Source: Blastomussa wellsi (lineage: Eukaryota; Cnidaria; Anthozoa; Scleractinia; Plerogyridae). Taken from it: a DNA stretch of 64,000 nucleotides. Both the position numbers and the translations under genes were made by a program. Below are positions 15-52,685 of the stretch, one piece after another (the first letter of the stretch is position 1; every line of letters begins with the position of its first letter). The notes beneath the pieces were generated by a model. It was not told the DNA's origin. It saw nothing but the letters and a program-made list of their open reading frames with translations, and did not search any database. The DNA lies in contig OX393567.1 in NCBI GenBank assembly GCA_947652115.1, forward strand, positions 17,559,486-17,623,485. Direction: 5' to 3'.

Positions 15-182
15 AATAGACCAATTCCGATATATTAAAATTCTAACATGGCGCCGAGGCTTAGGGGAATAAAACAAAAGAAATTATTTATTCATCCCTA
101 AGCCTCGATGCAAAATCTTTTGTTTTATTCCCCCAAGCCTCGGTGACATGTTAGAATACTAATATATCGGAATTGGTCTATT
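15..182. repeat. Foldback (palindromic) element
   Basis: The outer 22 bp at 15-36 (beginning AATAGACCAATTCC) is the reverse complement of 161-182. Inner blocks around 54-80 and 112-143 (ccgaggctta / aagcctcgg) also pair, so the whole 168 bp can fold into one long hairpin. There is no coding capacity. It looks like a non-autonomous DNA transposon (MITE); I could not find a clear target duplication, so the superfamily is open. Confidence 0.75.
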
Positions 183-512
183 ACTACAAGTTTCACACCG
201 CAAGAAGTGGACGAATCGTTTTGTAAGTAGTGTTTCGTTTTTGTGTTGCAATAAAAAAGCCCACCGCAGACGGCGAGGAAACTAGCAAACAATGCTTTCC
301 AAAATCTTTATTTGGTGCGCAAACACAAGGAACTATTTACAAGGCTAAAAGCGTTTTAAAAAGAGATGAAGAACGAAAGTAAAACGTTTCCGAGGGGGCC
401 ATATGCAGCGGTAATCAGTCGATACAAAGGTTCCCACCCCTCCCTCGTTTCCCACTGACGCGCGCCACTTTTCGCTTCTTGCGTGGCTTGATTCAAGAGA
501 CGCTCGACACTA

Positions 513-621
513 AACAATTATTGGATTCGGTTTTCGCATGATAGCGAGAATTATCAAGGCTGAAGTTTGAGTTATCCGCCGAAGCCGAAGGCTGAGTCGA
601 AAATCGAATCCAATAATTGTT
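513..621. repeat. Short MITE with AACAATTATTGGATTCG ends
   Basis: A 17-bp perfect terminal inverted repeat lies at 513-529 and 605-621 and encloses GC-richer sequence. TA lies just outside the left end and close to the right end, which would fit a TA-targeting family, although one arm has an extra T. Non-coding. Confidence 0.65.
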
Positions 622-977
622 TTATTATACATCAAGCTTCGAGCTTCTGCATAAAACAGTTTTATCAGGTTTGCTAGGGCTCTTGTGTTTCAGGTTCGTC
701 TTCTTTTATTTTTCATTGAAATACTGTCTGAACACTTTTAAGGCCCCATTTCGTGTTTTTTTTCCAAATCTTCTCCTGAGACTTAAGCCGATTCCGTCAT
801 GGCAAAATTAGCAAATGCAAATGCATGTTCGGTGTTGCGTCTATTGAGGTATGGCATCACTTCTACAGACATCAAAACAATTGACTGTAGGTATGACGCA
901 ACGAAACAGTGAAGGCAAGAATTAGCTGGGTGCTTTTAGCCAATCAGAATGGAAACAGTAACACTAATGTATAATAA

Positions 978-1097
<120 letters not shown>

Positions 1098-1752
1098 AGG
1101 AACTTAGGAACGGTCAATAACCAGGCATGGTCTAAATCGCGGGGCACTGACAAAGCTCACGGATAGCACGAGCAAAAGAACCACGAAAAACACGTGGCAC
1201 ACGAGCCTCGTACTAGCAGCACACGAAGAAGACAAAAAAGAGAACATTGACACGCTTGACTCGTGCAGATTTTTTTACCGGCTGTGTCCATGTTGGGTTA
1301 GTTTGGAGGATCGACGCAGCTGATCTTGGCAGCTTCGTCCGACCTCGTCTGTTTTATGAACACTGGCTTGTTTATAATTGTAAATATGAATGCTAGCTCT
1401 AACAATTCCGTTCATTAAAAAATTGAAGCATATACGACTATGGCTGATTTATTTGACAGTAAGTTGCAAGTTTGCAAGTTGGAGCGACTGGCGATTTTTG
1501 ATTGAATGTCATAAAATCATGATCAAAGAAATCACTCTGGTCAATTAAATGGACGCAGACAATCTATTGAACCACTCAAAACTCGTAGGAAACCCGTCCG
1601 AGCGAGAAAATTTTTCAATTGTCTGAACAGACTTGATTGAAAACTTTCCTCTCTCGTACTGCCCCTGGTATGGGTCTCGGTGTAAAATCATGATGGAGGG
1701 AGGGGGGGGGGGGGGTGGGACTGGTGGAATTTGAACATATGAACGGTCCCCA

Positions 1753-2126
1753 AGGCTGCGTCCACATAAATTTGAAAACGGCGTTCTCGACTCGAAAGCG
1801 GAGAAAACATTTTCTGTCCACACTACAAATTGCTCACACCATTGATTTTGAAATGCTGCCTGCCCAGAAACGCTTAAATTCACGCTAGAGCGTGCACACA
1901 TTGCTTGAGCCAAGTAAGTTATTCGAATGTTTCGATGACTCAGCATTTTCAAAAAAATCCGTTTTCGTCGTCCATACTAACACGCCTAGCCAGCGTTATC
2001 AAATTTTTCCGCTTTGGAGAACGTTTTCAAAAGGTTCCGGTTGCGGTGACCGAAAACGCCGTTTGGGTGTGGACGGAAGGCCGGCCAATCCGGAGAAAAA
2101 TAGTGTTTAGCTTCTGTGGACGCACG
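1753..2126. repeat. MITE, copy 1 of a family repeated in inverted orientation at 45 kb
   Basis: The left end contains GCGTCCACA and the right end TGTGGACGC. The interior has repeated phrases such as gaaaacg, cgttttcaaaa and the block ggtgtggacggaaggcc. The reverse complement matches 45259-45500 over long stretches, including the segment around 'gctggctaggcgtgttagt'. Just outside, at about 1691-1714, is an almost pure G tract. Non-coding; short ORFs crossing it are not supported. Confidence 0.7.
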
Positions 2127-2909
2127 TTGCTTAAACCCATGAATCCCGTTTGAAGGGCGGGAAAACTTTTGTTCTTGATTTTGGTTTTATTTCTCGATAC
2201 TTCTGTTTGGTTGAGAAAGTAGCGCGCTTTTTTTAAACCAATTGATGTTGTGATTTATATACCACAAGACAGCGCAGGCTGCTGGAATTTAAAGCATCTG
2301 ATAAACAAGGATTGACGTGATTCTCTTATAGGCGAGAGAGTTGCGATTTGCGAAGTCTCGGATTTGTGATAATGGTTGTTATAATTATTCCAGCCACTAC
2401 ATTCTCGTCCCCTGAGGCCGCGATCCCTAATAAGTCCAGTTTTGGAGGCGGCTAGGCTGGGGGGACTAGAATGAGGGACACTGCGGGAAAATTTTTAAGG
2501 AAATCCCTGAATATTTAATGCTAAGTTTTATGTTAGAGGTAGATTGTTTTATGTTTATTTACCTCTCAATTTCCACCTTCATAATTTTGCTTCCAATTTT
2601 TGCTATAAGCTCGTAATTTCGCACGTTTGGACTAAAATTATGCCACCGATGTATCATGGCCGCCCTACCTCAAGAAAACCTCGAGAAATCGCACGTCATG
2701 CGCGTGCGTAGCCAAGATCTAACCTCTCCCAGACCAGTACTTGGCAGGCGTCAAGAGACCATAAGGTTACAGAGAGAGAGGCTCCCGGTCAAGCCCTTGG
2801 GATATGCCAAGTACGCGAAAGTTATTTTTAGTCGAGCGGAAGTCTGTTTCTAGCGGAAATCTGTTTTCCGAGACGTCAACCGTTGGAAGGAAAACAAAGT
2901 TCTCTTGTC

Positions 2910-3225
2910 ATGGCGGACGAAGTGGAGTTAACGTTTAGCGATGAAGACGACTTTCGAGAACAAGGCAAATTTTTTTCTGGTTTGATAATCCCAGCTGGGA
3001 AAGAAACTCCCCCATTTCTACAAACACGATTAACTCGCTGACCATTGTATGTGATTTAAACGAAGAACTCGAGACCGAAACGGATAGCGGTGACATTCTT
3101 GGCACGACAGCGATAGAGAGTCGGATGAAGACTATACTGACGAAGACTCGATATTTGCGAGCAGCAGGAAAGAATGACGAAAGTCTAAGAAACTGAAAAT
3201 AGTTAAAGCATACGCACGATACATG
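2910..3225 (+). pseudogene. Decayed acidic N-terminal ORF, possibly transposon-derived
   Basis: From the ATG at 2910 one frame reads MADEVELTFSDEDDFREQ. The other plus frames continue with acidic tracts (NEELETETDSGD, then SDSDRESDEDYTDEDSIF followed by a basic KSKKLK stretch). Together these look like a single acidic-then-basic protein start broken by frameshifts. Acidic N-termini of this kind are common in transposase and zinc-finger ORFs of mobile elements, but no catalytic motif is visible, so I assign no function. It could also be a decayed exon of a host gene. Confidence 0.3.
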
Positions 3226-3634
3226 TTCCTTCCTCACTGCGTAGGCTTGACGAAACGAGGGTAGGTGCGTTATGTAGGGGGAAATTATTATGTACCCAAT
3301 GTATTAATCATGAAACTTTACCCTAACCCTAACCTATACAATCTGTTATGTTGTCTAAAGCGATTTATATGTAAAACCTTTGAATGCAGGGAACCGCAAA
3401 GTAATAGTCAGCAGTTCTTGTTGCCGAATCTCTACGGCAAAGGGCACTTTCAATGGGCCAATATTTCGACTAATACAACTAGCTTCAGGGCCAGTGCTGC
3501 TATGAAAAAAGAAACCGTAGTGCCAGCCTTGAAGTTTAAATTGATTTATATAATTGATTTATATATCCCATAATCTGTTATGTCGTCTAAAGCAGTTTAA
3601 ATATATCTATATATTTTGGGTACATAATAATTAA

Positions 3635-4592: not shown

Positions 4593-5159
4593 TTATTTCT
4601 TCCCCTTTGCTTTCTTGGCTGGGCTCTTCTTCGCCGGGCTCTTTGATTTCTTTGCGGCTTTTTTGGCGGGCGACTTTTTCGCTGGTTTCTTTGCTGCTGG
4701 CTTTTTGGCCTTGGCGGGTGATTTTTTGGCTGCAGGTTTCTTTGCAGTCTTCTTTTTGGCTGCGGGCTTCTTTTTTGCGGCTGCTTTCTTTGCAGCAGGT
4801 TTTTTCGCTGCGGGTTTCTTCTTCGGTTTTGCCGCTGGTTTCTTGGCTGAAGGCTTCTTCTTCGGTTTTGGTTTCACTTCGGCCGCTTTGTTCACCTTGA
4901 AAGATCCGGATGCGCCAACCCCTTTCGCTTGGATGAGTTTTCCAGCCGCAACAAGTCTCTTAAGGTTGAGTTTCACCTGAACTCCAACATTGTCTCCAAC
5001 TTTGTAATGTTCCGAGATGTATTTCACAATTTTTTGACGAGAGGAGCCCGTGCGTTCTTTCAGCTCTTTAATCGCCGCGACGATCATTTCTTCGTACTTC
5101 GGGTGCTCGGCAGGCTTCTTCGCTGCCTTCTTCTTGGTCGCCGTCGCTGTATCGCCCAT
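4593..5159 (-). CDS. Linker histone H1 (H1/H5 family)
   Basis: An intronless ORF of 188 residues that binds nucleosomal linker DNA in the nucleus and compacts chromatin. Residues 1-18 are a short basic tail. About 19-93 form the winged-helix globular domain ([20 protein letters not shown], then [10 protein letters not shown] and [16 protein letters not shown], ending GASGSFKV). The remainder is a Lys/Ala/Pro-rich tail with many AAKKPAAKK and SPAKK repeats; SPxK motifs are known kinase and DNA-binding sites in H1. The start codon has an excellent context (gtcaccATGG). The 3' flank has AATAAA rather than a histone stem-loop, and no core histone genes are nearby, so this is a solitary, probably replication-independent H1. 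Long ORFs on the opposite strand are only shadows of the Lys/Ala codons. Confidence 0.95.
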
Positions 5160-11938: not shown

Positions 11939-12880
11939 AATACAATACAATACAATACACTAGAAATAAATACATAAATAAATAAATAAAAAGAAAAGAA
12001 ATAAATAAAAATAAACCACCTCCAAACAGTTGCCCTTACAGGTTTTTGTTTACCTGTCACAAAAGGGAAAGTGACACAAAATACATTTAGAAAAACTTCA
12101 AACTAAGATGAAACAAGGGGAAGCAGAGGCTCCCACTTCGTGTAATGATAGTTAAGATTATTTCTCTCTCTCGCAATGAAGTGTTCTAATTTGTAGGTAC
12201 TCTTGATTCTCTCTAGTAGCAGTCTTGGAGATAAGAACCTATCATTTAATTTAAAGAGATAAAGGAGGTATTTGCCTTCAAGGATGATGTAGTTAATTAA
12301 GTTGTTGTAAATTTATTTATTATTGAGTCCGAAAATAACATCTGTGATTTCAAAGTCCTTAGAGATCTTTAGTTGATCTCTGAACAAATTAACTACTTCT
12401 TTCCAGTACGTATTTACGTGCGAGCAGTAGAAAAAGAAGTGTTCTAGAGTTTCTATTTCCGTTTTACATAAGTAGCATAAGGGAGAGTCCGCTTTTTTGA
12501 ACTTGTGAAGCATGTTGTTTGTGTAGAGAATCCTATTTAATATTTTGTATTGGAATTCACGCAATTTAGTACTCAACGTTACCTTTAGTGGTAATAGAAA
12601 GATGTCTTTCCAATTTAACTGAAAGGACTCGGTGTTGAAGAGATCTTCATATTTCTTCAAGGCGGTAGGTGCATTTGCTACATTAGAGATTAGGCTGCCA
12701 TACAGAGATTTTGATCGCATTTTCTCTACATTGATTTCTTCATTGTTTATGTAAATAAAAAAGGTGGTTAAGTTTCATTGGTGTGAGTGAAGAGGTATAA
12801 GGCGTCGGTTTGTGTTTAAGATATTTCTCCATTTTAATGGAAGCGCCTTGTATATACTGAATAGTAAGAAAGAGTCGGTG
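11939..12880 (-). mobile_element. LINE 3' part, left of the transposon insertion
   Basis: This is the minus-strand continuation of the LINE whose upstream part lies at 20325-20960. It comprises the end of the reverse-transcriptase ORF, a roughly 370-bp 3' UTR and a tail of tandem TGTAT units at 11939-11960. The element was intact through this point before the 7.4 kb transposon landed between 12881 and 20324. Confidence 0.8.
12313..12880 (-). pseudogene. LINE reverse-transcriptase C-terminus with zf-RVT
   Basis: Residues such as LREFQYKILNRILYTNNML, then SPLCYLCKTEIETLEHFFFYCSHVNTYW, are the zinc-binding zf-RVT module (CxxC...H...C) found at the C-terminus of L1/Tx1-type non-LTR reverse transcriptases. 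The ORF ends in GLNNK and a stop at 12313. Upstream (12770-12880) the frame reads through FLLFSIYKALPLKW but has an in-frame TGA near 12778 and a slightly shifted start, so this copy is dead. It is the same copy as 20325-20960. Confidence 0.8.
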
Positions 12881-12882
12881 TA

Positions 12883-13617
12883 GTCAAGGAGCTAGCCTAG
12901 GACCAGAGAAAATCAAATTTGCACAACCCACACTACAGAAAAGGTTTCACACCGGATTATTGTAGAACAATATCTCCTCTTCGTTGTCAGATACTATGTA
13001 GAGTCAAATTGTGGTACCATTCATGAGATACAGGGCGGTATTTACCTTGATGGCAAGAACTGCATGAAAACGAGGCTTATCTCATGTTTACCGTGTAAAA
13101 CTGCAGATTTACGACAAGGTCCACTCTAAATGAGTCTTAGCAGTAAGAACTAAAAACACTCTATCATTTAAGTTGAACATAGCTTGTCTGTATCTGTCAC
13201 GTGGCTAGTCACGTGACGTTTAACGTTTAAAAGCCCTTGAACATTTCAAAACAGTCAACTTGCACTCTTTGTACATCCTCATAGTGTTCCTATTTTTTGA
13301 TTACTGTACCTTTAAATTATTGTTTATGCCATTCACAGTCATATGCTTTCATAAAATGTCGATTTTCATTGCAAAAGCTCAAAACATTGCTCAAAACCCA
13401 CGATCCTCACTAACCTGGGTCGATGACATGGAAACGAGGCTAAACTGAACATTGCAGTAAGACTTATCCCTTTCATGATATTGCATCGCTAATCTCATGT
13501 TTGGGTAATAAAAAGCTAATTCACTCTACAATGTCCGTTTCAAAAGAAAATTGCAAGAATATTGCTGAAATAAACACAACTATAACCTACTTCGTTGAAA
13601 ACATGAAAACGAGGCTG
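12883..13617 (+). repeat. Left terminal inverted repeat
   Basis: 735 bp matching 19594-20322 in reverse complement with scattered substitutions and small indels. It carries three copies of a 15-bp motif CATGRAAACGAGGCT at 13063-13077, 13427-13441 and 13602-13616, and two CACGTG boxes within 13196-13217. A 62-codon ORF appears identically in both arms (13260-13448 and 19754-19942), simply because the arms are the same sequence; it is not likely to be a gene. Confidence 0.9.
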
Positions 13618-14634: not shown

Positions 14635-17600
14635 ATGGATGACCAAGAAGGCACGTGCGATCTTTTGCACAGGCCAGCAAAGAGGAAAAAAAGTTCAGAT
14701 TTTGACCGCTGTATTATTTGTCAAGTGTCCGATGACAAAACTATTAGAAAAGCACACGTATCCTCAATTCAAAATTTCCTGAGTGCAATGGAAGTGCGCC
14801 GAGATGACGTTTTTGATCGCCTTTCGCCCGATTTGCCCACTTTAACGGATCGTCAAATTGTATGGCACTCATGTTGCTATGAATCTTACACAAGTCAGCA
14901 GAATCTACGATATGTGATTGGCAAAACTCATGAACATGCGACAACACCAGAGACTACAGTCAAGCGTGTGCAACGTATATCATTCGATTGGTCGAAATGC
15001 CTTTTTTGCAAGAACAAAACACACAAAAAGGACAAGAAACTTATTAACATTGCAACGTTTGAGGCATGCGAGAGCATAAAGAAGGCAGCAGAAACAAAGA
15101 ATGACGAGGACATGCTCCACATTCTTAGAAGTGTCAACGACCTGATAGCAGCAGAGGCTAAGTACCACAAAGCCTGTTATAGCTCATACACCAGCAAATC
15201 AAATTTGAAGTTTCAAGGTCAGCACGAAAAGGAAGAAACGAAGCACGACGAAGCTTTTAATGATTTAATATTCATCGTTTCACCTAGAATCAAAGCTGGG
15301 AAGGCTTATGATATGAATAACCTCCTTCGCATCTTTAAAGAGTCACTTAAGTCCAAAGGTGTTGACTGTGAAGGGTACACGAAACAGAAGTTAAAAGCTA
15401 GGTTGGTGTCCCACTTCAAAGAAGGTTTGGTCTTCCACCAGCCACAAAGCACGAAGCCGGAACTCGTGTTTTCTAGTTCGTTATCATTACTTGATGTTAT
15501 TAATGCTGCTAGCAGCCTTCCAGCCAATGAAACAACAATGGGTACACAGCATACAGGAGCTAAACATATTTCAGATCACAATGATGACGCCAAGATGGTT
15601 TATGCTGTGGCTACAATAATCAGAGGTGAAATCAGTCAGTGCAAAGGTATCAATCTCCAGCCTCTGGATGTTGATGATTTGAGCCTTTCAAATTCAAGAG
15701 CACTTCTTCCAAGAAGCCTTTACTGGTTCATGAGGTGGGCCATAACAGGGGAGGAATATAAAGGTGGAAAAGAGGGCTTTGGCGAAACTGGTGAACCTTG
15801 TTCGAATTTGGCAGATGAAAGAAAGATTGTTATGATCGGCCAAGACCTCGTTCACTGTGCGTCTCATGCTAGAGTTAAGCTCCCAAAACATGTCAGTCTG
15901 GCGATTTCAGTGAGACATCTAACTGGCTCAAAGCAGCTGATCACTATGCTCAACAGAATGGGTCATTGCTGTTCCTATGAAGAGGTTGAGTTAGTCGACA
16001 CATCTCTTGCTAATGAGATACTTGCAAAGTCAGATGAAACAGGAGTTATCATACCATCAAATATACATCCTGGTGTTTTTGTCCAAATGGCGGCTGATAA
16101 TAACGACATCAATGAAGAAAGTATTGATGGGAAAAATACGACACACGCTACAACACTTGTTGTCTATCAGCGCAAGAATTATGGCCCAATCCCTCCCCGT
16201 CAGATACACGCAGATCACTCTCAGAGGAGAAGATCTCTGGATTCAGCAAGAACCACTCTGGACATCCAAGAAGTGAGCGTATGCGGTAGACGAGCACCCC
16301 TTACGAGCTTCCTGGGTCAATTCAAAATGGAATGGCTCCAATGTACTAATCAGCTATTATCTTCTTACACCCAAGATCTTGTTTGGATGTTACTTCGTCT
16401 CCATTCCACTTCTATTTTTCAAGAAACTGGTATTCCATTACCTGAGCAGAGTATACCAGGATGGAGTGGGTTTAACTCACGCTATTTCTGTGAGATACCA
16501 GTCAGCACAGTAATTGGTTATTGCCCGATGATAAACGCCTCAGCAACTGAATACAGCACAATCTTCACTCTGATGAAAGTTTCCCAAGAAATGGCAAGAA
16601 GATTACAACAAGACGACTCTGTCATTACATTTGACTTGGCAATCTATATCAAGGCAAAGCAGCTTCAGTTGAAATTCCCAGAAGAATTTAAGAACACTGT
16701 GATACGCATGGGAGGATTCCACATAGCGTTGAATTACCTGTCCCTACTTGGAAAGAAGTATGCTAATTCTGGGTTGGAGGACCTTCTCATAGAATCAGGT
16801 GTCTATGCTGCGCGTACCACATCAGCTCTTTTGCTTGGGAAGTCGTACAACCGTGGAATTCGTGCTCACAAGCTCAGTATGGAGGCACTCTTTCGTCTTA
16901 TGTGGCAAGCTTTTCTGCGGTGGCTGGGAAGTCAAACAATAGGAGTTGATAACCATTACAAGCAGAATTTGATAACCAAGATCCAGGAATGTCAACATTG
17001 CTTCAAGAAGAATGAACCCATCCAACAGAGCTGCGAGGCAGTGAAAAATGACATGGATGCCATAACTTCTCTGCTCACTGTTTTCAAAACTGAAGCAAAA
17101 GGAAGATCAAAATTATTCAGCTTCTGGGAAGAGTACATCTCCATGGTAATGATACTCTTGCAGTTTATAAAGGCAGAGCGCACTGGCAACTGGAGTCTCC
17201 ATTTGTCGTCCACGGCCGCAATGCTTCCTCACTTCTTTGCCATGGATCGATCCAATTACTCACGCTGGATCCCAATTTACCTTGCGGATATGCAAAAGCT
17301 TGAAGAGAGGCATCCTAACGTTTTCGAAGAGTTTGCCGCTGGAGCTCACAGTATTAGTAGTTCACAGCAGCCGTTTGCTCAAGTCTGGTCAGACATGGCA
17401 CTTGAACAATCAATTAACCTGGATTCAAAATCAAAGGGGGGCATAGTTGGCATTAGTCGCAGAGAAGATGCTGTGGATCGCTGGTTTTTGACTTGCCATG
17501 AACGGGCTTCCATCACACACTCGTTGAAGGAAATGTGTGGGCTTGAAAATCGTGCGGAGCGGGTTGGAACACACAAGGAATCTGGCGCTGCTCGAGTGAA

Positions 17601-19446
17601 GAGGGATCAAGAAGATGTTGAACGTCTGGTTTCAAGCTTCAATTCTGGCCTGCTGAAAAACCCATTTGACATCCCTGAAGAACAAGAGGAACCTCTACGG
17701 AACATTGCAACTGGGGTTGTCCTGCCCCAAGAAACCGCTGATCGTCTTTTGGATGCTACAACAACTGGAACACGCAGCATGGAGAGCTTCATCGAAACCA
17801 GAATTAATACCAACCAAGTTAACTTCTGGGATCCGCTGACAAAGTTGAAAATAAAAACATTTAGCTCTGCAGCGAAAAAAGTGCAAGTAAAATCAACTGA
17901 TGACAAGATCGTTACTCTCACTGCCGATCGAGAGCTATTTGGAAGACTTCTTGTTGTTGCTAGGCAAAGAGAAATTGACTTGCGTGATGTACTTAGCTAC
18001 GAACTTTCCACTGTTCCTGTGGCAATAGCTCATGGTGACGGAAGTCTAAGGAAGACCACAAAGAGCTCACTGATGTCAGTTCTAGAAAAGAACGTACCTG
18101 CTTCGCCTTCATTGCCACCGTCCTTGGTTCCAACAGCCTGTGTTATTGATGCAATGGCTCTGATTCAAGTGATGAAGTCAGCAACTTCTGCGTCGTTTGG
18201 AGAAATGGCGGAACAGTACTGCCTGCACATCTCACGCACTTTAAGTCGGAACAGCTGTACGCGAGTAGACTTAGTTTTCGATCAATATCGTGACCAGTCA
18301 ATCAAGGAAGGAGAGCGACGCAACAGAGGAGAGTCAAGTTCATTAGAAGTTAAAATCCACAGTGAATGTACGCCAATCCCGAAACAGTGGGCAAAGTACA
18401 TATCAAACCCAAGGAACAAAGAGAACTTGGCTGATTTCCTCTGCAGCGCACTGTGTAAACGTCTAGCCCAAAACCTACAACCTCAACAAAAGGTTTTTCT
18501 TGCTGGTGGGTTCAAAGACGGCATGAAGACAGTGTCTTGCATTCAAGGTCATTGTACGATAGAACCGCTGCTACATTCTGATCACGAAGAAGCTGACACC
18601 AGGCTTTTGCTTCATGCAAAACATGCATCACTGACACACGGCAGAATTGTGATACAGTCGCCAGACACGGACGTTGCTGTGCTTTGCATGGCCCATTTTG
18701 AAGACCTGCAATGTGGCGAGTTATGGTTCCGAACTGGAGTAAAAGACCGGCTGAGGTTCATCCCTGTCCACCTGTTACACTCTTCCTTTGGTCAGCCCCT
18801 CTGCAAAGTCCTTCCGGCTTTCCACGCACTAACTGGTTGCGATTCAACTAGTGCGCTACAGGGAGTTGGAAAGACGACAGCATGGAAGATTCTGCTCAAA
18901 GATAACCAGTTTCAGCAGCAACTCTCCCACTTTGGTGCAGATCCTATTGTGAGCATTCAATCGGCGATATCAAGTGAAGCTTTCATCTGCTCCATATACA
19001 CTCGTGGGCCCGGACAGCTAACCAAAGCGGATGATGTGCGGTATTTGCTTTTCTGCCAAAAGAACAAGAAGAGCGAAGACCTTCCTCCAACTTCTGAAAG
19101 CCTGGCTCATCACATCAAAAGGGCAAACTTCCAAACATTCATTTGGAATAAAGCTCTTGTCGCAATGCAGAATCTCCCTTCACCTGGTGGACATGGTTGG
19201 AAGCTGGTGGAAAACAAACTCGTGCCCGTGCTGATGACGAAAGAACATGCACCAAAGAGCATCGTGGAACTGACTGCTTGTCGCTGCAAGAAATCGGCAT
19301 GTACACGAAATTGTTCTTGCAAGTTGAACAACCTTTCATGCACGGATGCTTGCTTGTGCATGGCCGATGATGAATGCCAAAATCCAATGAACGTTCTGAC
19401 GACATCTCTTTCAGATGATTCAACTGATTCCGAATGGGAACAGTGA
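14635..19446 (+). CDS. Transposon protein: Cys/His modules, possible RNase H-like core, FEN1-like nuclease, CXC domain
   Basis: A single uninterrupted ORF of 1603 residues. Residues 26-82 and 122-182 are repeated Cys/His modules (CxxC...WHSCCYESYTS and CxxC...YHKACYSSYTS). A conserved-looking core follows: TFDLAIY (D667), GGFHIALNYL (H696), YNRGIRAHKL, MDRSNYSRW (D871) and ALEQ (E924), a candidate DDE/RNase H-like triad. Residues about 1170-1415 resemble FEN1/XPG nucleases: VIDAMAL (D1172), VFDQYRD (D1216), EEAD (E1319, D1321), SPDTD (D1344, D1346), then TGCD (D1403) and GVGKTTAWKIL. The C-terminus (1549-1581) is a nine-Cys CXC cluster starting CRCKKSAC, as in tesmin/LIN54. Similar uncharacterised proteins are, from memory, widespread in cnidarians, fish and arthropods. 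The likely role is transposition (inference). The ORF is intact, so the copy may be young. Confidence 0.85.
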   Translation: MDDQEGTCDLLHRPAKRKKSSDFDRCIICQVSDDKTIRKAHVSSIQNFLSAMEVRRDDVFDRLSPDLPTLTDRQIVWHSCCYESYTSQQNLRYVIGKTHEHATTPETTVKRVQRISFDWSKCLFCKNKTHKKDKKLINIATFEACESIKKAAETKNDEDMLHILRSVNDLIAAEAKYHKACYSSYTSKSNLKFQGQHEKEETKHDEAFNDLIFIVSPRIKAGKAYDMNNLLRIFKESLKSKGVDCEGYTKQKLKARLVSHFKEGLVFHQPQSTKPELVFSSSLSLLDVINAASSLPANETTMGTQHTGAKHISDHNDDAKMVYAVATIIRGEISQCKGINLQPLDVDDLSLSNSRALLPRSLYWFMRWAITGEEYKGGKEGFGETGEPCSNLADERKIVMIGQDLVHCASHARVKLPKHVSLAISVRHLTGSKQLITMLNRMGHCCSYEEVELVDTSLANEILAKSDETGVIIPSNIHPGVFVQMAADNNDINEESIDGKNTTHATTLVVYQRKNYGPIPPRQIHADHSQRRRSLDSARTTLDIQEVSVCGRRAPLTSFLGQFKMEWLQCTNQLLSSYTQDLVWMLLRLHSTSIFQETGIPLPEQSIPGWSGFNSRYFCEIPVSTVIGYCPMINASATEYSTIFTLMKVSQEMARRLQQDDSVITFDLAIYIKAKQLQLKFPEEFKNTVIRMGGFHIALNYLSLLGKKYANSGLEDLLIESGVYAARTTSALLLGKSYNRGIRAHKLSMEALFRLMWQAFLRWLGSQTIGVDNHYKQNLITKIQECQHCFKKNEPIQQSCEAVKNDMDAITSLLTVFKTEAKGRSKLFSFWEEYISMVMILLQFIKAERTGNWSLHLSSTAAMLPHFFAMDRSNYSRWIPIYLADMQKLEERHPNVFEEFAAGAHSISSSQQPFAQVWSDMALEQSINLDSKSKGGIVGISRREDAVDRWFLTCHERASITHSLKEMCGLENRAERVGTHKESGAARVKRDQEDVERLVSSFNSGLLKNPFDIPEEQEEPLRNIATGVVLPQETADRLLDATTTGTRSMESFIETRINTNQVNFWDPLTKLKIKTFSSAAKKVQVKSTDDKIVTLTADRELFGRLLVVARQREIDLRDVLSYELSTVPVAIAHGDGSLRKTTKSSLMSVLEKNVPASPSLPPSLVPTACVIDAMALIQVMKSATSASFGEMAEQYCLHISRTLSRNSCTRVDLVFDQYRDQSIKEGERRNRGESSSLEVKIHSECTPIPKQWAKYISNPRNKENLADFLCSALCKRLAQNLQPQQKVFLAGGFKDGMKTVSCIQGHCTIEPLLHSDHEEADTRLLLHAKHASLTHGRIVIQSPDTDVAVLCMAHFEDLQCGELWFRTGVKDRLRFIPVHLLHSSFGQPLCKVLPAFHALTGCDSTSALQGVGKTTAWKILLKDNQFQQQLSHFGADPIVSIQSAISSEAFICSIYTRGPGQLTKADDVRYLLFCQKNKKSEDLPPTSESLAHHIKRANFQTFIWNKALVAMQNLPSPGGHGWKLVENKLVPVLMTKEHAPKSIVELTACRCKKSACTRNCSCKLNNLSCTDACLCMADDECQNPMNVLTTSLSDDSTDSEWEQ

Positions 19447-19593: not shown

Positions 19594-20322
19594 CAGCCTC
19601 GTTTTCATGTTTTTCAACGAAGGTTCTATTTTTATCTGTTTCAGCTCGTAATTTTCTTTTGAAACGGACATTGTAGAGTGAATTAGCTTTTTATTACCCA
19701 AACATGAGATTAGCGATGTAATATCATGAAAGGGATAAGTCTTACTGCAATGTTCAGTTTAGCCTCGTTTCCATGTCATCGACCCAGGTTAGTGAGGATC
19801 GTGGGTTTTGAGCAATGTTTTGAGCTTTTGCAATGAAAATCGACATTTTATGAAAGCATATGACTGTGAATGGCATAAACAATAATTTAAAGGTACAGTA
19901 ATCAAAAAATAGGAACACTATGAGGATGTACAAAGAGTGCAAGTTGACTGTTTTGAAATGTTCAAGGGCTTTTAAACGTTAAACGTCACGTGACTAGCCA
20001 CGTGACAGATACAGACAAGCTATGTTCAACTTAAATGATAGAATGTTTTTAGTTATTACTGTTAAGAATCATTTAGAGTGGACCTTGTCGTAAATCTGCA
20101 GTTTTACACGGTAAACATGAGATAAGCCTCGTTTCTATGTGGTTTGCGCGATCAAGGTAAATACCGCCCTGTATCTCATGAATGGTACCACAATCTGACT
20201 CTACATAGTATCTGACAATAAAGAGGAGATGTTGTTGTACAATAATCCAGTGTGAAACCTTTTCTGTAGTGTGGGTTGTGCAAACTCCTAAAATAAGGCC
20301 GTTCAGGAGATAGCTCCTTGAC
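19594..20322 (-). repeat. Right terminal inverted repeat
   Basis: Reverse complement of the left arm. The three inverted copies of the 15-bp motif (AGCCTCGTTTYYATG type) are at 19595-19609, 19761-19775 and 20125-20139, and the paired CACGTG boxes lie within 19985-20006. Differences from the left arm are scattered point changes and a few small indels. Confidence 0.9.
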
Positions 20323-20324
20323 TA

Positions 20325-20960
20325 GTGGGTGAAAGAGCCGATCTCAGATTCTCCTCCCATCACCAACTCCCCTGCATTGCCATAGAGGTCGCCAACTCTG
20401 TATAAGCCATGTCCCAATATTTTGGAGCTGAATACGGATTTTCCTCCGATGCAGATATATTTGGAGGAAGGATCTGTTTTATTCAGAGAGGACCATAAAA
20501 TAAGACATTCCTTGTAAAAATTGGGAACAGGTATAGACAGTTTCTTGAAATCAAAATTACAGTGAAACAAAAATTTTCCTCCCATGTTTTTGAGATACGA
20601 ATCTAAGAAAAATCTCCAGCCAGCACTGTAGGGATCTAAATATCTTTAAATACACATTATTCTTTGTGTAGAGATCATTTACTCTATATCAGGCATATTA
20701 AGTCCCCCTTTCTCAATTGGATTTATCAGTGCCGTTCGTTTTATTTTGTCTTTACCTTTCCAAACAAAAGAGTAGAGGAGTGAATTGAGGTTTTTAATGA
20801 AATCTTTTTTACAAGAGACCAAAGCTGCGCGGTATAGGATTTTTGGGATAACAAACGATTTAATTACTTGTATTCTGCCGATTAGTGTTAGGCCTCTCCA
20901 ACTCCAACCCGACAAGTATTCTTTGATGGATTTTTCGATAGATTCAAAATTTCAAAATTT
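20325..20960 (-). pseudogene. LINE reverse-transcriptase fragment, upstream of the transposon insertion
   Basis: The minus strand reads SGWSWRGLTLIGRIQVIKSF, then IPKILYRAALVS, FVWKGKDKIKRTALI and KGGLNMPDIE. This is the thumb region that follows the reverse-transcriptase core in L1/Tx1-like LINEs. It continues (with a frame change near 20640) into GGKFLFHCNFDFKKL and ends at SEIGSFTH at the insertion point. The 5' side stops near 20960, so the copy was 5'-truncated, as is usual for LINEs. The rest of the same copy is at 11939-12880. Confidence 0.8.
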
Positions 20961-21263: not shown

Positions 21264-22345
21264 TACAATACAATACAATAGTTAATTGACACTCCCCTGG
21301 TGGGGCTTTTCAGTGACAAAGCGACTAAAAACTAATTAAAATAAGAGAAGCAGTTAACAAAAGCAATATAAACATACCTATTTAAGAATTAATCGTATAA
21401 TGAATATTCTCACTACGTACTATACAATGTGCATATTTTAAGTTAAAAAATTATAATAAAATAAGACACTAGTAAGATACTAAAATACTATCATAACGTG
21501 CTATTTAAAAAGTCAGTAATCAATTTATTTTTCAGATAAAATTTAAAAGTAGAAACCGATTTTGCAGTTTTAAGAGTACTGTCTAGATTGTTCCAAATGT
21601 GCACCATACGGTAGTGGAATGTTCTCTGTCCGGTACTCGACTTCGAGTCACGCGCCCGGTGACCGCAATTCTTGTTGTAAATTGATCGCTGAGGTAATGA
21701 GGAGCTTGACCAGTCATGCATTTAAATGCCATGAGAGCGTAGCGGAAGAACAGCTTTTGTTTAATTGGAAACCAACGTAGATCTCTTAGTGCGGGGGTTA
21801 TATGATCAAATTTCCTGGTACCTGTAATAATGCGCGCGGCAAAGTTCTGTACTGACTAGTCTACAGATATTTTTGTTCGAGGTGTTCGACCACACTGTGG
21901 AACAGACTAGGGCACTTATTACTGTCACCAGTTGGTTACGGTCGAGAACATGTTTAACCCGACTGATTTGTGCGAGGCTTGACATACAAGATGACGTAGT
22001 TTTTAAAACATGGTCGTCAAACGTTAGTTGCGAATCTAGAACAACCCCAAGATCTTTGGCCGAAGATTTAAGAGCGAGATCTTTTCCTAGAAGATATATT
22101 TTAAAGTCGGGGAGTTTGGCAAGTAGTTGTCGGCTTCCAAAGACTACGAGTTTTGTTTTGTCAGGATTTAAAAGTAGAAAATTGTTAAAACACCAATTAC
22201 GTATTAAAAGAAGGTCGCTGTTTAGATCGTTCATAGCAGTCGGACAATCACGCATCTTAAAAGAAATCTGAAGTTTAGTGTCATCTACGTAACATTGCGT
22301 TAAACAGTTTCTAGGAACAGAAGGTAAGTCGTTAAAGTAAGATTC
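21264..22345 (-). pseudogene. 5'-truncated CR1/RTE-like LINE 3' end
   Basis: The minus-strand frame enters at LNDLPSVPRN and contains the reverse-transcriptase catalytic motif YVDDTKL at about 22280. It continues LLLNPDKTKLVVFGSR, KDLGVVLDSQLTFDDH and RLAQ-like sequence. Later fragments in other frames (NFAARIITGTRKFDHI, LRDLRWFPIK, TGQRTFHYRMVHIWN, FKFYLKNKL) show frameshifts. The non-coding 3' end carries an (ATTGT)n-type tail at 21264-21281. The copy is dead and 5'-truncated; the exact clade is uncertain. Confidence 0.8.
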
Positions 22346-24120
22346 TTCCTTATTATGACCACATTCTCGCCCTGTGAGCAGTTAACAAATCACATGCTAT
22401 GATTGGATACCTGAGCACTCGAGGTGGAGCCATCTCATTAGTAATTCATCAAATTAAAACAAAGGAAATGAGAACCATGACCATGGTGTGGAAATCTGAT
22501 CTTAGTTAGCATAGATTATTACAAGCTTATTTCTTTGTTTTTTTCTGTAGTTTTTGTGTCAGTTGAGAAGGTTTATCAAACATTTAGAGACAGTGTTTCA
22601 TCACGTTTCCAATCACCTCAAATTCTTCAAAAATACTCTGCTGTGCATCGTATTTTCAACTCTCTTCTCTGACTCAGTGTTAGGAAATGTGATGAAACAC
22701 TCTCTTGTGTTTGATATACCAGTATTACTTTAAAACTGTAGCAAATTGCAGGAAAACTTCCATTACAGTGCTCAAAATGAGCACGATAATGAGATACTTC
22801 AGATAATGAGATACTTCAGGACAAATTAAAGTAACCAACATGTTAACATGTAAAATAGCTGGGATTTGTCATTAAACTTGCCTCCAACAGCTAGCTAATA
22901 ACCCTTGCTTGCAGTGGAATTCGGGTTCTCTCTACACTTGTTTCTTAGCTTTTCTCAGTGCCTTCGCCATTGTTCCTAAAACTATTGATACCCCAGAGAA
23001 GGCTTTTTCTATACAGTTTCTATATGGATTTGCTCACGAGCGAGATAAATCGTCGTTGTTCCCGTAAACAAACACGGTGACCTATATTTTTTTATTGCAG
23101 AACTTTGGTGCACTAATGATCATCTTTAAGTTAAAAAAGTAAAAAAGAGCAATATCTCTCAGAAAATCGTTACTCGATGATGCCAATTATAGCCTTGGGA
23201 ACAACGACTCGAGGGACGTTTTGAGTCGGTATCGTTTAAATTTATCTGATTTTTCATAAATTATATTTTAAATTTTGTTGTAAGATAAGGCCAATCATAT
23301 GATGGTGACCTACCTTTTTTATGGTATTTTTCGAAACAGTGCTTGGAAGGGAACATTCGTGGAAAGTTTCAAAGAAAATATTGCACAGCTTTCATTTCTG
23401 AGGAATCACCTTACACATGTCAAAGTAAGACTTCATTCGTAACATATTTTTAAGGCCAGATAATGCTGTTTTAAAAACTTCCATACACGATAAAAATTTA
23501 ATTATTTCAAAGCTAACAAGCTTGCGGAGTCGTATGACGTATCTGTTACAAATGTATGCGGCAAAAGTGGCAACTTTTTTCACATTTTCTCGAGTTTCCT
23601 TCAGTTAAAGTCGAGATGGGCATGTTTGCTTCACATGACGCTTATTTTTCACGAAAATTTATAAGACCAAATTTTACTGACGAGGAGGACAAAACAACAA
23701 ACTTGCAAATAACGAAGAAATAGCCTTAACAACCCCCTATGGTTTTTAAGTTTAAAATTTATATAAGGGAAGCGTGTATATGCTGTGAAAAGTTTGGAAA
23801 ATTTCTTCAACGAAATTGAAGAAAATCGTGAAATTCAGATTTCAAAATGTACAGATATGATTACCCTATGGAGCCACCTAAAGTGTTATCGGTCCGATGT
23901 TTTTACTGTGAAGTGTTAAATATGCCAAAATTTCAATGTTGACTGTTATATAGGAAATTACAGTCAAGTGTAGCAATAAAAATTGAAAAGTAAAACTACA
24001 GAAAATAAGTTGTTGATAAAATTTTGCCACTAAACGTGTTGAAAATCACTATTGTTGAAAGCAAGTAAACCACAGAATGAATTTAACAGACTCTGGATGT
24101 TCTGCGCTGCACATTTAAAG
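22346..24120. other. No recognised gene
   Basis: AT-rich sequence with only short, unconvincing ORFs. The segment near 23030-23090 (gagcgagataaatcgtcgtt...cggtgacctata) resembles 61630-61700, so it probably contains an interspersed repeat. Confidence 0.4.
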
Positions 24121-49460: not shown

Positions 49461-52400
49461 ATGAATTTTCATCCTCCAACATTTAATCTCATGTTGTCTG
49501 AAGGCGAACCCTATGCGCACGCAGCTGTGGGAAATGTTCGCTACTCGTGCGCGACAAATGGAGGATCAGATGCAAATTTATTCCATTACCCAGTTGCTCT
49601 TGGTAGTTTAGCAGACTTGAGTTCGGACTCCGAAGTCGAGATAATCGAAGCCATAGGTACGCATAATTTGTAAAACGTTTGTAGTAGCTTTAGTCCTGAC
49701 ATGGCCGGGCGCCTTCGCAGCGTCTTTTGCATAACAGTGCAACACGGTTAATGATTGTATCTCTTTCTGTCCCTCTTTTTACTACGATGCGATGCCATTC
49801 TGCAGAAATTCCTATCTTGCCCAAGAAGCGAAGGAGCAGGACGAACTTCGACGCTTGGCAACTCGGTGAGCTGGAGAAGGTTTTTAGGAGAACGCAATAT
49901 CCAGACGTTTTCACCAGAGAAGCACTCGCTCTGAAGCTTGACTTACTTGAATCAAGAGTACAAGTAAGGAAAAATTGTCCCTGAAATAACTCACAGAACT
50001 TACTTAGGTTATGTATTGTTTATAATACTTGAGATTATTGTGCATGCAGTTGTGGCTGCGCCTAAACAGAAACGTGATTGTTCCTAAAGAATTTAACCTT
50101 AATCTCGATCCCGGTTTGGATGTCGTTTAGACCCTGGCTGCCTTTTCGGCTTTGTAGAAACATGACGAGCTGTAGAAATCTTTGGTTACCTTTTGGTTAG
50201 AATACAAAGTTCGTACAATGCAATTCGCAACAGATGCCTGAGCGATAATTCTCTTAACACGTTTTGCAGGTTGCTATAGTAAGTTTTCACACTAGTCAAT
50301 CCAACGAAGAACAGACTCTTTCGCTTTGAGCAAGATTCGGAGTCGTCCTAGGGCTAAAAACGCTCAATCTCCTCGAAAAGAACATCCGAAATCGACAAAT
50401 TAGTTGTCCTCCACGTTTGTTCTGTTCTTAATAATCGGGTAAGTTAAGCATAAGAAAGTTTCAGAACATACGGTTGATTTATGGTTGGGAACGAAGAGAC
50501 ACCCAACTGAGTGGGTTCCTGTCGTGTTCCTTGATTTACACACCTAATTGAATTTAGCCAGTCGTTTGCGGACCACTCTTCGTCAATAGACCAATAAATG
50601 ATTCCTCTATTTTCCCATCGAAAGAAAGTATTCTACCACAATTGCACTCCACATTTCCGCTAGGGGCTCGCAGTGGAGTTTTGAATAAGCAATGGCAGCC
50701 ATTTTGTGATAGCGTTTCTGTTATCGCACAGAGTTCGTAATGGCGAAAATTTTACTGGCGACTTTAAGTCGCCAACAGTTTCCGTTTTACGCGTCCGAGA
50801 CATGGCTTCGTGCAGAGATTTTGTCTCGTTTTCCTTGAAACGTGAAAGAATAAACTTGAAAAGCTGTTGAGAAAGTCATCAAATCGGCAAACCATCTTGC
50901 TTCAGACACGTAAAGTCGGTAGTTTATTTGTTTCTCAGTGACGATTTAGCTACCTAGGTGTCGAGATGGATGAGAATTTAAACCAGGTCCCACCTTGCCT
51001 GCTAATCAGTAAATAAATAAAGCCTGTTTTACATTCAACTGTTCAAACTGTGCTAAGCATTTCTAAAGTTTGGTTTTGAGGAGTGCTTTTTGGTTATAAA
51101 GGAATGTTTTGGGAGCGCGCTGGTTGGGAATCCGGCACTTAGTTCATCTCCTTTAACGCCTTTAAACGGTGTTAAAACGTTCATTGTTTAGCACTCTTTA
51201 GAAGCTCTAATTGACGAAGAAACCACACTACCTCGATGATTAATGTTGCTGCCGATTTTCAAATATTTCTTGACTATGCAGCGGTCCAAGCATGCAAGCA
51301 AATTAAAATCAATAGCTAACCTTTCATCTTTGAACAACAGTATTTCTTGTGCGAAACATAACAAAGTTGGGAGGGCGATAACATTTGCTTCTGGACACCA
51401 TAGTGGGAAAATATTTCCCTGCCAATGGCTCCTTTGAAGCGAATTACTTCCTCAGTTTAACCTTGTAGTTTTTTGCTTGTCAAAGCATAATAAATTACTC
51501 TTAGTAAGGTCACGATTGATTAATGTCCTGCAGAAAGAGGAAACGATTGCCTTTATCTTCTCGTGCTTATGTTCATTCTTTGCGTTATGTTTTTACATAT
51601 GGCCACATTATTTGTCACAAGTGGCTTATGTAGAAATATATGGTTTACTGCCAAATTATTTATTGAATTTGATTTGTACACTTGGATGTGTAAACACGTT
51701 TGAAGCGATGAAAACGTTGAGCCGCTTTGTTTACATACGTTGTAAAGTCACAGGGCGGTCTCGTCGGCTGGATAAGAAACTTGGGTTATAAATTTAAGTC
51801 CTTGCAAAAATGATTTATGGTTGAGATGTCTTTAGATAACTTAAGCCGAGAAAAAAGTTAATTGTCTCCATTGTCGTTGCTTTCGTGATTGGTTCAATAT
51901 TCTGCCTTCGTGCGACATTGTGTTGGCTTTTGTATTAAAATGGGTTCTGCTTTGAACAATTTCAGGTATGGTTTCAAAACAGGAGGGCAAAATTGAGAAG
52001 AGAAGAGAAAACCAAAGCGAGACCTGGAAGGAGAGAGAAAAGTGAGGTTGAAAAATCCGCTGTGACTTTGAAAATTCTCGAGGTGTTCGACAGGGCTTCA
52101 GATAACAATTCAGATGAAGCTGTTTCCCCCTCGCCACCGAGTGCGGAAAACAATGCCCAGCCACTGCTCTCATCAAACTCTTTTAGCATCGAAAGCATTC
52201 TGTCACGAAAAGACCCTCCGCACCCACATAATAAAAAACAAGCCACTATTTCCCAAAATATCGGTAAAAGTTTCCGAATTGAACAACTAATTGACGCCAC
52301 TAAAGAAATGCAAGAGAAAGCGCTTGACAAGACTAGCTCTGCTACTCGCTCAAGGGGACCAGCATGTGTTACAACAACTCCACTGTCAAATACTACTTTA

Positions 52401-52685
52401 TGTAGAACAACCATGTCTGAAAGTAGAGAACCGGAGAAAGAAAAAGTCCACTGTGACAGGACTAACATTTCATCTCAAAAAGCTGCAGTGTTAGCGCCAT
52501 TTTATGTTCCACTGCCGCAACATTGTGGTTCTTATCAGAGTGTGCCTGAAAGATACGTCCAAAGTGAAAGTGCGCCACATTACAACGCTGAAATGTTTGA
52601 GAACTTTCGTAGCTCCAGTATTTTACGACTGAGAACGAAAGCAGAGGAACATTTGAAACAACTTAGAGTTTCTTATGTTAACTGA
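49461..52685 (+). CDS. unc4: UNC4/UNCX-type paired-like homeobox transcription factor, three exons
   Basis: Exons 49461-49656, 49806-49963 and 51966-52685 join in frame (phase 1, then phase 0) into 357 residues. The homeodomain (73-132) reads [56 protein letters not shown], with Q50 and N51. The [22 protein letters not shown] block followed by EKTKARPGR closely resembles UNC-4/UNCX (WxxKENTKKGPGR in that family, from memory). An eh1 motif FSIESIL at 191-197 and an eh1-like FRIEQLI at 221-227 predict recruitment of Groucho/TLE co-repressor, as known for UNC-4. UNC-4 proteins are nuclear repressors that act in neuronal identity in bilaterians. The intron between homeodomain positions 46 and 47 is the PRD-class site. 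Intron 2 is 2.0 kb and shows no exon. Confidence 0.9.

Follow-up and report, generated by a model that had tools for sequence, protein, structure and literature searches.

Among the DNA transposons of Repbase, the closest described relatives of the locus considered here are those of the Academ superfamily, which is said to have been treated by Kapitonov and Jurka in 2010 and by Kojima in 2020; the latter work reportedly describes the nuclease of the AcademX lineage as being of the XPG type and a zinc finger with eight cysteines (Cys8) as a trait of Academ. The present analysis concerns a DNA transposon of 7,444 base pairs (bp) found in a stretch of 64,000 nucleotides (the window) of contig OX393567.1 of Blastomussa wellsi (Cnidaria, Scleractinia), and in particular a predicted nuclease domain within the protein that it encodes.

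Academ is counted among the DDD/E superfamilies (PMC9587614, in excerpt), and the available part of PMC10045372 distinguishes two lineages, namely AcademX, which encodes a nuclease and gives target-site duplications of 3 or 4 bp, and its sister lineage AcademH, which encodes a helicase instead and gives duplications of 9 or 10 bp. As stated there with reference to Kojima 2020, the difference in duplication length seems to be related to the encoded helicase or nuclease. In bivalves, Academ elements are among the longest of the DDE types, with a mean of 5,565 bp (PMC10294476, in excerpt), and the element in the window is longer than this mean.

The window holds one long, uninterrupted open reading frame on the + strand (14635..19446), which starts with the ATG at 14635 and encodes a multi-domain transposase protein of 1,603 residues, followed by a stop codon. 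The interpretation that we favour, with some reserve, is that of a 7.4-kilobase (kb) DNA transposon, most likely of the AcademX lineage, in which a single protein joins a predicted DDE transposase, which would most likely serve the 3′ ends, to a predicted FEN1/EXO1-type nuclease, which would serve the 5′ strand.

The predicted nuclease domain

The original prediction placed a structure-specific nuclease of the FEN1/XPG kind at 18140..18905, inside a DNA-transposon protein. A domain with such a predicted fold is indeed found there, but the interval is too short, the fold match covering residues 1142-1518 (18058..19188, + strand). Counted from the ATG, the motifs lie where they had been read: VIDAMAL at 1170 (D1172), VFDQYRD at 1214 (D1216), EEAD at 1318 (E1319, D1321), SPDTD at 1342 (D1344, D1346) and TGCD at 1400 (D1403), followed by a predicted helix-two-turn-helix (GxGK), which opens with GVGKTTAWKIL at 1410, 7 residues past D1403, in agreement with the spacing claimed for the hairpin glycine. 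The FEN1-like order of the acids and the hairpin are as described. D1216 and E1319 are 103 residues apart, while the equivalent stretch of human FEN1 has 72 residues, which points to an insertion that had gone unmentioned. The acidic pair E1319/D1321 is of the E-x-D form typical of EXO1, FEN1 having E-x-E.

The predicted structure combines a PIN-like fold, the helix-two-turn-helix and the seven acids in canonical order, the features by which FEN1/EXO1/XPG nucleases are recognized, and the fold matches, together with the conserved active site, bear out the proposed assignment. A search with residues 1130-1500 returned 119 homologues, which were aligned. Counting the rows with a letter at the given position, the acids are retained in 117/119 (D1172), 117/117 (D1216), 119/119 (E1319), 119/119 (D1321), 114/117 (D1344), 117/117 (D1346) and 114/115 (D1403) sequences. 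Six of the 119 sequences are gapped in at least one of the seven positions; of the 113 that are complete there, 108 are acidic at every position, and the remaining five have lost one acid each. Residues 1140-1500 contain 35 Asp or Glu, only eight of which are at least 90% conserved, namely the seven active-site acids and E1318. Since the 119 homologues had been found with the nuclease itself, the count was repeated on 40 domain-carrying proteins found only by a search with the transposase (described below): 27 of them are free of gaps at the seven positions, and every one of these 27 is acidic throughout. The acids, therefore, do not vary freely within the family, and the seven-acid motif is beyond chance. 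Short proteins matched with the nuclease domain alone number 381, of which 120 were listed and aligned; 45 of these cover all seven positions, and the nine that have lost one acid are read as decayed copies. Conservation extends to K1224 (118/119), R1228 (116/118) and R1231 (117/117), which are offset by one from EXO1 in an ungapped alignment; in FEN1, EXO1 and XPG nucleases, the second Asp is followed by a Lys and an Arg that form the gateway.

Whether the domain might be an XRN-like 5′-3′ exonuclease rather than a flap endonuclease, working on RNA or recessed DNA ends and having the excision site or transcripts as its target, has to be considered, given that XRN1 and XRN2 share the nuclease core and occupy the top rows of the Foldseek list (XRN2 first, E-value 2.5e-05), that XRN2 is aligned over 320 residues compared with 266 for EXO1, and that XRN enzymes have the same seven acids and Lys/Arg helix. 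We nevertheless regard it as improbable: the fold-alignment Z scores are higher for EXO1 (16.0) and FEN1 (14.9) than for XRN2 (13.8), the nuclease matches of the family sequence profile are to EXO1 only (E 0.65 or worse), and the GxGK after D1403 is conserved (G1412 in 107/116 and K1413 in 115/116 homologues), the helix-two-turn-helix being a feature of FEN-family enzymes that XRN enzymes are not known to have.

Across the nuclease domain, neither the window protein nor any of the six relatives scanned has a Pfam family above its cut-off, and that family libraries of this type miss the domain is explained by the structural model. Pfam and phmmer against the Protein Data Bank (PDB) with the window protein, and Rfam with the window, gave no useful match either. 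A glycosyl-hydrolase/chitosanase match overlapping the nuclease (Pfam E 0.048, PDB E 0.2) and matches to potassium channels are at chance level and were discarded.

The predicted transposase and its coupling with the nuclease

Upstream of the nuclease, a predicted RNase H-like DDE core with a long helical insertion spans 15790..17529 (+ strand), its predicted catalytic triad consisting of D488 (16096), D667 (16633) and, probably, E924 (17404). E720 was rejected as the catalytic Glu: the helical insertion separates it from the helix, carrying D920 (118/118 homologues) and E924 (116/118), near which the fold alignments end. The nearest folds include P-element- and hAT-type transposases; a Foldseek search with this part of the protein found nothing below E 0.001, and the list of fold matches contains no Academ structure, an absence that is uninformative. 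Two N-terminal CxxC...HxxC modules (C26/C29/H78/C81 and C122/C125/H178/C181; 14710..15177, + strand), in which C122, Y177, H178 and C181 are at least 90% conserved, are predicted to bind zinc and DNA. At the C-terminus, a CXC (Tesmin/TSO1-like) domain (19279..19383, + strand) contains eight cysteine columns, again at least 90% conserved, and matches LIN54 with the family profile (E 0.0013); PF03638 is above the Pfam cut-off in two of the six scanned relatives (P0066 and P0116), but the scan of the window protein did not return it.

The search with the transposase (residues 440-960) yielded 98 proteins, 47 of which also belong to the 119-homologue set from which the profiles were built. The nuclease is carried by 87 of the 98; it is present in all 61 that extend at least 550 residues beyond the transposase, a line chosen by us, and 53 of these 61 also match the CXC profile, while the 11 proteins lacking the nuclease all end within 214 residues of the transposase. 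This fusion in every sufficiently long homologue suggests that the nuclease acts inside the transposition complex. It could, instead, act only after excision, processing the broken donor site or its ends in a way that biases repair towards the element, without contributing to the cleavage or joining of ends; P-element- and hAT-type transposases cut both strands themselves, and EXO1, which has the highest Z of the fold matches, is an enzyme of resection and repair. Beside the constant fusion, what speaks against this rather unlikely alternative is that the type of enzyme is related to the duplication length in both Academ lineages (PMC10045372, in excerpt).

The named sources of the relatives are all animals and include Porites, Actinostola, Exaiptasia, Nematostella, Branchiostoma, Holothuria, Apostichopus, Styela, Sycon, Nymphon and Ceutorhynchus. 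As the protein search reached relatives that share short words with the query and have 0.55-1.75 times its length, the helicase-bearing sister lineage is not expected among the matches. A pattern search of genome contigs found two relatives (L001 and L002) among 38 matches; that of viral contigs found none among 22 matches, and phage records gave no match. When checked for inverted repeats, L001 showed only short, weak inverted matches, whereas L002 holds a second element (86-3367) with TAGTAGGGTGCCC inverted at both ends and TTA on both sides. It looks like a deletion derivative, because its match to the query is confined to residues 1257-1598. Relatives also occur in records filed as bacterial (L001, L002, P0042 and P0129, from a Planctomycetota bin, a Bathymodiolus gill symbiont, Sedimenticola and Thiodiazotropha); these probably represent animal DNA in the assemblies, and the L002 contig, filed under the mussel gill symbiont, is likely host DNA.

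Ends, insertion site and lineage

The element is bounded by terminal inverted repeats at 12881..13617 (left) and 19594..20324 (right), flanked by GTG at 12878..12880 and 20325..20327, as read in the sequence; the exact ends, here as in L002, were placed by eye, using the inverted sequence that the two termini have in common. In both arms the outermost 14 bp (TAGTCAAGGAGCTA) are identical and are followed by a divergent stretch of 23 bp (left) or 26 bp (right) and then by about 640 nucleotides at 97% identity; the intervening stretches (12895-12917 and 20285-20310) do not align between the ends. As candidate transposase binding sites, the left arm carries the repeat CATGRAAACGAGGCT three times (starts 13063, 13427 and 13602; 13063..13616, + strand) and the right arm three inverted copies of it (starts 19595, 19761 and 20125; 19595..20139, - strand), the third of which reads CATAGAAACGAGGCT; one of the six copies has a changed base. 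Removal of the element together with one GTG joins the flanks into a continuous - strand reading frame of a long interspersed nuclear element (LINE; ...GSFTHRLFLTIQ... at the joint). The GTG on both sides and the continuity of this frame, therefore, define a transposon that is 7,444 bp long and has duplicated 3 bp of its target. The split LINE frame itself, of reverse-transcriptase type (12313-12774 and 20322-20951, - strand), has stops of its own further out.

A single frame free of stops over 4.8 kb would also suit a domesticated host gene, an interpretation to which we attach hardly any probability in view of the inverted repeats, the target-site duplication and the insertion into a LINE, of an unbroken run of 323 bases that is identical in both arms, and of relatives with up to 149 member sequences, besides shortened or decayed ones.

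As to the lineage, the eight-cysteine finger reported as an Academ trait is present as the CXC domain, and it occurs in the same element as the predicted XPG-type nuclease, another reported trait. The predicted EXO1/FEN1-fold nuclease with its conserved active site is likewise accompanied by a predicted DDE transposase, and the duplications (GTG/GTG here and TTA/TTA in L002, two insertions only) fall within the 3 or 4 bp of AcademX; no difference from AcademX was found in this comparison of described features. Traits of AcademH are absent, in that Pfam finds no helicase in the element's one long frame and the duplication is of 3 bp, not 9 or 10. The element is, thus, very probably an AcademX transposon with a FEN/EXO1-fold nuclease, a lineage assigned on these features. 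That another DDE superfamily gained a FEN-type nuclease independently is very unlikely: DUF6589 (PF20231), which matches some relatives, offers no link to Academ because it was not found named in the literature searched, but the combination of nuclease and 3-bp duplication is that by which AcademX is described (PMC10045372, in excerpt), and the joint presence of nuclease and finger points the same way. Although the original prediction knew of no named superfamily with this architecture, AcademX is, by that description, a nuclease-encoding lineage with duplications of 3 or 4 bp, and the pairing of transposase and nuclease is probably not new. The literature search found no paper pairing Academ, as a whole word, with Cys8 or XPG, and the parts available of PMC10799480, PMC10294476, PMC12730594 and PMC4455052, which deal with Academ abundance, naming or helicases or leave Academ unnamed, do not describe an XPG domain. 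KolobokE, KolobokD and KolobokP are also DDE elements with an extra nuclease, but of lambda-exonuclease-like, DEDDh and His-Me finger folds (PMC9587614, in excerpt), and were set aside for this difference of fold.

Elsewhere in the window, a second reverse-transcriptase-like fragment with broken frames (21583-22381, - strand; YVDD, then a LINE-like C-terminal stretch) and a frame starting with the end of a homeodomain, in all likelihood a homeobox gene's final exon (51939-52685, + strand), were recognized by eye. Overlapping tandem repeats of 15-48 bp at 4612-4870 would, on the - strand, give a Lys/Ala/Pro-rich stretch resembling a histone H1 tail.

A possible division of labour and its parallels

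The anatomy of the element, the conservation of its residues and the coupling of the two domains are observed, and both folds are predicted; for catalysis, substrate and order of steps, we infer the following scheme. Binding of the transposon ends and of target DNA would fall to the N-terminal zinc modules together with the CXC domain. 3′-OH ends would be made by the RNase H-like core (D488, D667 and probably E924), which would connect them to the target at two points separated by 3 bp, hence the 3-bp duplication. At each joint, a non-transferred strand that has kept its connection to donor DNA would then form a 5′ flap next to a gap in the target strand, and such a flap, a substrate of the FEN/EXO1 family, may be cut by the nuclease domain before or after joining. 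This division of strands, with the DDE core serving the 3′ ends and the FEN/EXO1-type domain the non-transferred 5′ strand, is put forward as a tentative proposal; a role of the nuclease in trimming or resolving transposition intermediates, as originally suggested, is plausible.

If the overall reading is true, the window contains a copy with an uninterrupted frame and matched ends, suited to point-mutation tests of the role of the Academ nuclease, for which the alignment identifies the residues to be mutated. PMC10045372, in excerpt, describes that role only by relating it to the length of the duplication.

With EXO1, FEN1, XPG and GEN1 the domain shares the predicted fold, the order of the seven acids and the helix-two-turn-helix, but identity in the structural alignment is only 11-17%, the stretch from D1216 to E1319 is longer and the domain is fused to a transposase. 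The transposase, in turn, resembles those of the P element, hAT (Hermes), the IS256-family ISCth4 and RAG1/Transib in its RNase H-like core and in the long helical insertion before the last acid, at 7-10% identity; to our knowledge, none of these has a FEN-type nuclease attached. In Tn7, TnsB cuts the 3′ strands and TnsA the 5′ strands, and it is this division of labour between two nucleases that the proposed scheme resembles. It is conceivable, if doubtful, that the element carries a eukaryotic counterpart of TnsB/TnsA in one chain, a P/hAT-type DDE enzyme for the 3′ strands and a FEN1/EXO1-type enzyme for the 5′ strands, the flap nuclease finishing transposition without help from the host.
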